A stretch of DNA of 34,136 nt from a virus. Location of the stretch: positions 1 to 34,136 of IMG/VR virus record IMGVR_UViG_3300042452_000226. One strand, written 5' to 3'. Made by a program: the position numbers and the translations under genes. Shown here piece after piece: positions 27,287 through 28,326 of the stretch; the stretch's first letter is position 1, and each line of letters starts with the position of its first letter. The notes beneath the pieces were generated by a model. It had not been told where the DNA came from, ran no database searches, and saw nothing but the letters and a program-made list of their open reading frames with translations.

Positions 27287-27543
27287 ATCCAACTCCAATG
27301 ACCGAGGCATGGCGGGGAGCGGCTGGCGAGCTGTACCCGCCATGCCCACGGTCTTGAGATGTCGAACGGTGCCAGCCGCTCAAGCCCCTTGCGCGAGGCT
27401 CGGGCGCAGTATACCATCTTCCCGTCCGGCGTGTGCCTGACGCGATGCCCGGGATCGTTCCCGTGCGTCGGCACGACCGGACCATACGGGCAGCCACGGA
27501 CGGCTCCCTCCTTTTCGCCCCCGGAATGCGCCCCGCCTGGCAT
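27220..27543 (-). CDS. Doubtful ORF upstream of the DUF1376-type gene
   Basis: A minus-strand frame of about 107 aa. Its first part has coding-like composition and high GC3 (CPYGPVVPTHGNDPGHRVRH, DGKMVYCARASRKGLE), but no Shine-Dalgarno precedes the ATG at 27543; a good AAAGGAGGG lies inside the frame near 27510 instead. The second half (SRPWAWRVQLASRSPPC onward) looks non-coding, coincides with perfect inverted repeats and overlaps the DUF1376-type gene by 67 bases. It may be a short gene with a decayed end, or chance coding potential in a structured RNA region. Confidence 0.3.
   Translation of the reverse strand: MPGGAHSGGEKEGAVRGCPYGPVVPTHGNDPGHRVRHTPDGKMVYCARASRKGLERLAPFDISRPWAWRVQLASRSPPCLGHWSWIWRRITLGSRSTRPTGRREPRT
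27306..27384 (-). promoter_or_regulatory. Interlocking inverted repeats in the leader of the DUF1376-type gene
   Basis: GGCATGGCGGG (27306-27316) is the perfect inverse of CCCGCCATGCC (27336-27346); ACCG/CGGT (27301-27304, 27349-27352) extend the stem. Directly adjacent, GAGCGGCTGGC (27317-27327) is the perfect inverse of GCCAGCCGCTC (27371-27381). A third pair, CTTGAG (27353-27358) and CTCAAG (27379-27384), overlaps the second. On the minus strand this lies 9 bases before the GGAG of the gene at 27286. The two 11-bp stems are interlocked with no linker between their 3-prime arms, so full formation of both looks sterically barred: a switch is plausible. Confidence 0.7.
27422..27503 (+). ncRNA. 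Possible structured RNA ahead of terminator 1
   Basis: CCGTCCG (27422-27428) and CGGACGG (27497-27503) could close a domain containing the perfect hairpin CGTGC-GTCG-GCACG (27462-27475) and GGGA-TCGT-TCCC (27451-27462). A strong plus-strand terminator follows at 27529-27566. The same DNA partly overlaps a doubtful minus-strand ORF, and no good promoter is seen, so this is only suggestive. Confidence 0.3.
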
Positions 27544-27566
27544 CGTGCCGGCGGGGCGTTTCGTTT
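27529..27566 (+). terminator. Intrinsic terminator 1
   Basis: CGCCCCGCC (27529-27537) pairs perfectly with GGCGGGGCG (27550-27558); inner GGC/GCC pairs extend it over the loop ATCGT. The T-rich tail TTTCGTTT follows at 27559-27566. The T-run is on the plus strand only, so it stops rightward transcription. Confidence 0.8.
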
Positions 27567-27609
27567 GGTACCATGCCGGCATCTAACACGCGTCTAGCCC
27601 CAGACGCTG

Positions 27610-27758
27610 CATATTGCCGAATGGCAACGCGGGAAACCGCGCACAGCACCGCGCAAGGCTCTGGCGCACGACAACCAAAGGGCGGTGACCGACACCGCCA
27701 TCAAATCAGCGCGAGGCCTTACGCGCACGACAGCCCCCCACGCGGGGCTGTTTCGTTT
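27610..27758 (+). ncRNA. Structured RNA unit A (six stem-loops and terminator)
   Basis: Successive perfect hairpins: TTGCC/GGCAA (27614-27627, loop GAAT); CGCGG/CCGCG (27628-27641, GAAA tetraloop); GCGC/GCGC (27651-27667); GGCGGTG/CACCGCC (27681-27699, loop ACCGA); GCGCG/CGCGC (27709-27726); CAGCCCC/GGGGCTG (27731-27750) with TTTCGTTT, the terminator. The same order (stem, GAAA-capped stem, inner stems, 6-7 bp stem, CAGCCCC terminator) recurs in unit B, suggesting tandem paralogues. No convincing promoter is visible for A. No family is recognised. Confidence 0.55.
27731..27758 (+). terminator. Intrinsic terminator 2 (end of RNA unit A)
   Basis: CAGCCCC (27731-27737) and GGGGCTG (27744-27750) form a 7-bp stem with loop CCACGC, followed by TTTCGTTT. 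The last T residues form the start of the -35 element of the next promoter, so terminator and promoter are fused. Confidence 0.8.
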
Positions 27759-27784
27759 GACAGCAGCACCGGGCGCGATATACT
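27757..27784 (+). promoter_or_regulatory. Strong sigma70 promoter for RNA unit B
   Basis: Perfect -35 TTGACA (27757-27762), 16-bp spacer, and -10 TATACT (27779-27784). Transcription is expected to start near 27791 (AACAAACC). The only downstream element before a terminator is unit B; no ORF with a ribosome-binding site follows, which supports a non-coding transcript. Confidence 0.8.
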
Positions 27785-27790
27785 TCGCGC

Positions 27791-27925
27791 AACAAACCTC
27801 CGTCAGCCGTTGACGGCGCATAGTCGGGAAACCGACGAACCTTCCGCTAGGTAAGGCGGGCGCCGCAAGGCGAGTGAACAGGTCGAAGTTCACCATGCAG
27901 CCCCTTACGCGGGGCTGTTTTGCTT
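27791..27925 (+). ncRNA. Structured small RNA unit B with own promoter and terminator
   Basis: An expected transcript of about 135 nt. Hairpins in order: CCGTCA/TGACGG (27800-27816); GTCGG/CCGAC with GAAA tetraloop (27823-27836); CCGC/GCGG (27844-27859); CGCC/GGCG with GCAA tetraloop (27861-27872); GTGAAC/GTTCAC (27874-27893); CAGCCCC/GGGGCTG terminator (27898-27917). Two GNRA tetraloops and six consecutive stems are strong signs of a folded RNA. TAGGTAAGGCGGGC at 27848-27861, largely loop, is perfectly complementary to the major capsid message around its stop codon. The unpaired 5-prime end contains ACCTCC, an anti-Shine-Dalgarno sequence. No known RNA family is recognised. Confidence 0.7.
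27898..27925 (+). terminator. Intrinsic terminator 3 (end of RNA unit B)
   Basis: CAGCCCC (27898-27904) pairs with GGGGCTG (27911-27917), loop TTACGC, followed by TTTTGCTT. The stem is identical in sequence to terminator 2 while the loops differ. Confidence 0.82.
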
Positions 27926-28029: not shown

Positions 28030-28041
28030 CAGGAATCGTGT

Positions 28042-28075
28042 ACGCGCATTCACGCGGATGCACGCGCATTCACGC
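28042..28075. repeat. 14-bp direct repeats, iteron-like
   Basis: ACGCGCATTCACGC occurs at 28042-28055 and 28062-28075, period 20. A degenerate third unit (CGCATATTCACCCGG) follows. They lie directly after the two 7-bp hairpins, within the non-coding region. Protein-binding iterons or operators are plausible; nothing in the sequence proves it. Confidence 0.7.
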
Positions 28076-28079
28076 ATAT

Positions 28080-28319
28080 TCACCCGGACAGAACCGCCCA
28101 CACTTGTGCGGATCTGTAGCACTTTCGCTCCAGCGGACAAGGTTTCGTCACATGGAGCAGCACCCGGCTTCGCCGTGGTCTGCCCCTCGGCGGCAGGTTG
28201 TTCTTACCCCAAAGGTTGCGCTGGATCGCGGCGTACCTCGCGGCCTTCTGGCGATCCCCTTGCGGGTCATAGGGCTCCGACTCCCGCAGTCCCGCATCTC
28301 CGCAATCGAAGTATACCAT
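28080..28319 (-). CDS. Possible small basic protein (low confidence)
   Basis: 79 aa from ATG 28319 (MVYFDCGDAGLRESEPYDPQ). The stretch QGDRQKAARYAAIQRNLWGK and NNLPPRGRPRRSR has coding-like composition and codon use similar to the phage; the C-terminal third is less convincing. The start lies only 7 bases from the divergent ATG at 28327. A GAGG stands 12 bases upstream. It would be the first gene left of the plus-strand orphan gene. A DNA-binding role would be a guess from charge. Confidence 0.4.
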   Translation of the reverse strand: MVYFDCGDAGLRESEPYDPQGDRQKAARYAAIQRNLWGKNNLPPRGRPRRSRVLLHVTKPCPLERKCYRSAQVWAVLSG

Positions 28320-28326
28320 CGTGCAT

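Follow-up and report, generated by a model that had tools for sequence, protein, structure and literature searches.

A variable array of predicted small RNA genes in a BPP-1-like podovirus and its relatives

Introduction

What does the hairpin-rich interval at positions 27600–27925 of this viral DNA encode, and where would its products act? The sequence-only reading had described two tandem plus-strand units, A and B, of structured RNA. Both units are real; however, they are part of an array of greater extent, whose upstream member (unit 0) shows stronger conservation. That reading missed the array, the cassette content of which differs between close relatives. We consider it very probable that an array of structured plus-strand RNA genes exists at this locus.

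Genomic setting

The window, that is, the whole 34,136-base stretch analysed, is an IMG/VR virus record with the gene content of a BPP-1-like podovirus. Its minus-strand genes include those for phrog_376/394 tail proteins, the major head protein, a protease, a head-tail adaptor and the terminase. Limnohabitans phage DC33 and Bordetella phage BPP-1 encode related tail proteins, and terminase relatives in bacterial contigs (Ramlibacter, Dechloromonas, Comamonadaceae, Polynucleobacter) are mostly betaproteobacterial; these relationships indicate that the hosts of this freshwater virus are betaproteobacteria. An integrase was found in 0 of 12 such virus records, the contigs of which may be incomplete, and BPP-1 was positive in the identical search. 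The virus is apparently non-integrating, although incomplete contigs lacking an integrase are no proof of a lytic life.

Relatives were sampled as 80 loci via the terminase and 64 via a gene encoding a 191-aa protein. In the sampled loci, the same interval, which is modular, is bounded by the divergent 191-aa gene and by a minus-strand gene, either DUF1376 or another gene in its place. The genes neighbouring the array lie on the opposite strand, and the next plus-strand gene begins at 28321. The 191-aa protein has 25–28% identity to cyanophage proteins annotated as PurM or as a transcriptional regulator. In six loci (L022, L072, L076, L142, L147 and L148), a gene that by eye resembles PAPS reductase is inserted between the array and the 191-aa gene.

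Folding and database searches

The excess folding stability predicted by the sequence-only reading was found: the interval 27600–27925 has a minimum free energy of −149.6 kcal/mol, compared with −120.1 ± 4.6 for shuffled sequences (z = −6.36), and 0 of 100 shuffles were as stable. When the whole window was scanned in 140-nt windows, the mean z was −0.4 (sd 1.2).

A search of Rfam (release 15) identified nothing at or above the gathering threshold, and a permissive scan gave one sub-threshold match at chance level, in keeping with the earlier assignment to no recognised family. ARAGORN identified no tRNA or tmRNA. Neither the region itself nor the array from relative L143 had a BLAST match among INPHARED phages or PLSDB plasmids, and neither unit B nor unit 0 is present in Limnohabitans phage DC33, BPP-1 or three other named relatives. 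Models of B and unit 0 found no credible match in 250 Polynucleobacter-order genomes, with the caveat that strict filters could miss weak homologues; the best was a single match with an E-value of 1e-3, about chance level. Within that caveat, the result makes it less likely that the phage simply captured an sRNA common among its hosts. We also considered tRNA mimicry and CRISPR-repeat mimicry and found no support for either; no Rfam family of any type matched.

Units A and B

The unit B RNA is predicted to span 27790–27922 on the plus strand, with five hairpins followed by a terminator (27898–27917), rather than the six hairpins claimed previously. It is preceded by a sigma-70 promoter (27757–27784, plus strand; TTGACA-N16-TATACT), the −35 of which overlaps the T-rich tail that ends the terminator of A, as had been proposed. 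The GAAA-capped 5-bp stems reported for both units were located at 27823–27836 in B (GTCGG-GAAA-CCGAC) and at 27627–27640 in A (CGCGG-GAAA-CCGCG). The two terminator stems, CAGCCCC/GGGGCTG, are indeed identical (27731–27750 in A); this stem is a common kind of terminator and was rejected as a family signature, since the pattern alone picks up an unrelated phage (L002).

In a gap-free alignment of seven distinct B homologues (alignment A1), 33 of 33 pairs are kept and all 231 cells are paired. There are two compensatory pairs, with hairpin 1 changing from CA/UG to GG/CC in L143, and the tetraloops interchange GAAA and GCAA, that is, one GNRA for another. Variable columns are sparse in stems (5 of 66 paired columns, compared with 24 of 67 unpaired columns; Fisher p = 1e-4) and are spread evenly over codon positions (10/9/10) without periodicity. 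Because the variation is codon-neutral and spares paired columns, B does not appear to be coding, consistent with the earlier claim that no ORF explains the units. Between the window and L143, B is 85% identical, whereas the DNA of the adjacent 191-aa gene is 77% identical, which argues that B is under constraint. In the whole-window scan, B has a fold z of −3.3. The single-sequence minimum free energy of the window's B favours a pairing other than hairpin 1, whereas the comparative data favour hairpin 1; the L143 copy of B alone folds into the conserved structure.

Unit A (27580–27754, plus strand) consists of a core with four hairpins (27580–27673), a second half and the terminator. Its start is at ~27580, upstream of the 27600 given previously, and follows a putative extended −10 at 27566–27574 on the plus strand, identified by sequence comparison: TG-G-TACCAT (TGnTACCAT) in the window, and TG-A-TATCAT or TG-A-TATACT (TGATATCAT or TGATATACT) in relatives. 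There is no good −35, and A might be transcribed by read-through from unit 0. The copy in the window does have the six hairpins claimed for A, plus the terminator; however, this number is not conserved, as L136, L143 and L145 carry short forms that lack the second half. Folded alone, A has a z of −6.1. An alignment of five distinct sequences (alignment A2) contains two compensatory pairs, one from U-A to C-G and one from G-C to A-U. Compensatory changes in homologues, on which the earlier reading depended, are thus present in both units. The covariation comes from few lineages (five distinct sequences for A and seven for B, with two compensatory pairs each), and we regard A and B alone as moderate evidence, because related sequences can outscore shuffles without structure.

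A covariance model built only from B matches A over its full length, with E-values of 3e-9 to 3e-11 (elsewhere in the analysis, ~1e-9 to 1e-11). Because the shared terminator inflates this match, we also built a terminator-free model; with this model, copies of A rank next after B, with E ~0.02 in 640 kb, and the best unrelated match has an E-value of 0.9. Blocks common to A and B comprise AAC-N-AAC, CGUC, GCC, GACG, UGCAUA and GAA, and although the stems have diverged, the architecture and these short motifs are kept. Since the B model matches A, weakly even without the terminator, A and B are probably paralogues, as the earlier reading of duplicated, structure-conserved RNAs proposed; given that A adjoins B, this evidence is good though not overwhelming.

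Unit 0

Unit 0, the core structured RNA gene (27418–27563, plus strand), comprises a P1 domain, a CCACGGACGG hairpin, the string CCCCCGGA and a terminator stem (27528–27558), and it precedes A and B in nearly all relatives. It is preceded by a −10-like CAGTATACCAT (27407–27417, plus strand), and the same motif occurs at 28310 before the 191-aa gene. The palindromic GTATAC within this −10 also yields a minus-strand TATACT for the divergent DUF1376 transcript.

The structural evidence for unit 0 from sequence comparison is strong. A model built from 18 relatives with the window left out (model R2) detects the unit 0 of the window with an E-value of 2e-5. The alignment of 18 sequences contains 13 pairs with changes on both sides; covariation is far above that of slid controls, and 0 of 500 shuffles matched the covariation score. 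The fold z is −3.5 in the whole-window scan and −3.9 in a further folding test. Many pairs in the alignment are G-U (e.g. UG at columns 11-67, 16-61 and 121-138), and these would turn into A-C mismatches if the opposite strand were the RNA, which points to the plus strand.

The single-stranded CCCCCGGA (27518–27525), just before the terminator, is invariant in the alignment and present in nearly all relatives, and it is retained in the L118 and L153 copies that have lost most of the 5' domain. Its complement does not occur elsewhere in the window, where TCCGGGGG appears only as the motif's own antisense. In several relatives, unit 0 also contains a hairpin, CC-ACGGAC-GG, with a covarying stem and a nearly fixed loop, which resembles a CsrA/RsmE site. 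A CsrA/RsmA sponge would be expected to present several GGA motifs in hairpin loops; by inspection, certain relatives have a single hairpin with an ACGGAC hexaloop in their unit 0, others lack it, and A and B have none, so that this role was rejected. A hammerhead reading, based on a CUGACGAG string in unit 0, was considered and found no support.

Cassette joints and turnover

Most cassettes begin with TTGAC(A/G)-N16-TATNNT, with the −35 fused to the T-run of the preceding terminator. The 34-kb window contains a single TTTGAC(A/G)-N16-TATNNT motif, and in ten other loci scanned this motif occurs only before cassettes. Among homologues, the promoter hexamers and the 16-nt spacing are constant, and the spacer sequences are many and different. 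No gene follows any cassette ahead of its terminator. By sequence, the units have what is expected of sRNA genes, namely their own promoter (in unit A, only the extended −10), an intrinsic terminator and no ORF, as well as a structure or seed conserved in homologues, including the invariant string in unit 0.

The arrangements observed among relatives are 0, U-0, U-0-B, U-0-A, 0-A-B, U-0-A-B, 0-X-A-B, U-0-Y-B and U-0-A-Z-B-V; the tally includes overlapping loci from shared contigs, and the counts are therefore not independent of one another. Almost every array contains unit 0, whereas A, B, U, V, X, Y and Z may each be missing. L052 and L080 match the window at 94–98% identity in the flanks, and they lack the stretch from the unit 0 terminator to the B terminator (window ~27560–27908). 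Differences of single cassettes already exist between close relatives. Pattern scans of IMG/VR identified 11 further contigs with B and 8 with A after removal of chance matches, among them those in L173–L177 and L179, in which the rest of the unit is absent.

Unit U, located at 1906–2006 in L143 and found upstream of unit 0 in many relatives, is a further RNA with a TTGnCC-N16-TACAAT promoter of its own; it carries an internal AUA within a hairpin, the stems of which change among relatives. Y and Z have CATCCGAA 5' segments in common and an equal order of hairpins with different stems; by inspection, they are probable paralogues. At ~1785–1935 of L147, a further cassette combines TTGACA-N16-TATGCT with a T-arm-like GGGATTCGAAGGTC string, and ARAGORN identified no tRNA there.

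Elements flanking the array

Directly upstream of the DUF1376 start lies a minus-strand H-type pseudoknot with three helices (27298–27381), which begins about where the TATACT −10 (27407–27415, minus strand) would start the mRNA. Among nine distinct relatives, 10 pairs have changes on both sides, 96% of cells are paired, and 0 of 500 shuffles match the covariation score. The gene downstream varies, with HNH-like genes replacing DUF1376 in L009 and L155. The pseudoknot has no Rfam match and is likely a 5'-UTR element. At this locus, deep covariation support is confined to unit 0 and the pseudoknot.

On the other side of the array, four iteron-like repeats with 10-nt spacing (28039–28088) are a possible replication origin. 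A small conserved minus-strand ORF (28080–28320) is divergent from the 191-aa gene, and a palindromic AGTATACCAT −10 is common to this region and unit 0; the 191-aa gene may be leaderless.

Discussion

We propose, with a probability of roughly 0.6, that the locus is an array of independent, swappable phage sRNA genes that rely on the host's sigma-70 polymerase for transcription and whose products act on the host in trans. Each cassette would comprise a host-type sigma-70 promoter, a hairpin-rich RNA of 90–180 nt and an intrinsic terminator. With the next −35 built into the terminator T-run, cassettes could be gained, lost and exchanged at shared boundaries with expression intact. Host RNA polymerase would transcribe the cassettes, and the RNAs would persist by virtue of their stems and terminators and act on the host cell through single-stranded motifs, for which the candidates are the CCCCCGGA string of unit 0, the C-rich loops of A, and motifs in the linkers and loops of both A and B. 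They could pair with host RNAs or occupy a host protein that binds RNA; the present data fit riboregulation by base-pairing and protein decoying alike. We infer transcription, termination, timing, trans action and host targets from sequence features: trans action because no gene lies within any transcript and the neighbouring genes run the opposite way, and a host-side target because the unit 0 motif lacks a complement in the phage and the optional cassettes turn over. That relatives differ in their cassettes suggests targets specific to a host or to a defence system.

The same turnover, with cassettes swapping between close relatives while expression signals stay, would also suit counter-defence decoys, that is, mimics or sponges of a host RNA-binding protein or an RNA-guided defence complex, with one system per optional cassette. 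Stems that diverge while the architecture is kept also fit such decoys, as does the unit 0 hairpin that resembles a CsrA/RsmE site; however, the CsrA-like loop is missing from many copies of unit 0 and from A and B, no Rfam family matched and no association with defence genes was seen. RNA anti-CRISPRs provide a precedent (PMC10651486), and we consider this explanation possible but rather doubtful. More speculative still is the view of the locus as an RNA counterpart of anti-defence islands, in which a plug-in array with standard promoter and terminator joints would carry swappable, paralogous and structurally diversifying RNA effectors, each directed against a different host defence or RNA-binding protein.

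The remaining explanations account for less of the evidence. Replication-linked RNAs, which would control or prime initiation at the putative origin, are suggested by the four 10-nt-spaced repeats and by the adjacent DUF1376 gene, which is replication-associated in prophages; but every transcript would end at its own terminator before the repeats, all cassettes except unit 0 are dispensable in close relatives, and the stems covary as RNA, with G-U pairs, so that we regard such a role as improbable. At least as improbable are cis-acting leaders, attenuators or antisense elements for the neighbouring genes: terminators are abundant, and any long minus-strand transcript that ran into the DUF1376 gene from the right would have the array as its antisense, yet no plus-strand gene lies between a cassette and its terminator, the next starting only at 28321, and the 191-aa gene persists where the set of cassettes changes. 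Moreover, paralogue divergence has preserved structure, not complementarity to one partner. ORFs of 93–100 aa do cross the region on both strands, and its GC content is high; nevertheless, small protein genes or chance GC-rich palindromes are hardly credible given codon-position-neutral variation, conserved paired columns, compensatory changes and a z of −6.4.

Few virulent-phage sRNAs are known, and most have no known function. The compact, conserved locus described here, from podoviruses of fresh water, combines fixed cassette joints with a number of RNA families that are unrelated or have diverged. Near-identical phages provide natural presence/absence variants, which make the role of such sRNAs directly testable. 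In T4, the RNAs of bands C and D are encoded within a tRNA cluster, whereas those of the array have their own sigma-70 promoter and terminator, no accompanying tRNAs and a variable set of members. Small RNAs of virulent phages are already known (T4 bands C and D, PAK_P3; PMC4933390; review PMC12197685), and what appears new is the RNA families and the cassette-array organization, found neither in Rfam nor in the open-access literature searched. The T4 bands, small RNAs of a virulent phage described in the 1970s, are still of unknown function according to PMC4933390. Prophages encode trans-acting sRNAs such as PreS, VpdS, 24B_1 and AgvB (PMC12197685) and svsR (PMC12803456), which reprogramme the host either through base-pairing or by tying up Hfq; these are likewise phage-encoded sRNAs, but most have known targets and occur as single genes in temperate phages, and no multi-cassette exchange has been described for them. 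RNA anti-CRISPRs (Racrs, PMC10651486) are stand-alone small phage RNAs that block host defence by mimicry; they copy CRISPR repeats, whereas none was recognised in the array. In Pseudomonas phage PAK_P3, sRNA1 and sRNA2 are two RNAs of ~100 nt in neighbouring intergenic regions (PMC4933390). Unlike our proposed cassettes, they are late, strongly expressed and not described in that study as paralogous cassettes or a variable array; like them, they are small intergenic RNAs of a virulent phage for which trans action has been proposed.
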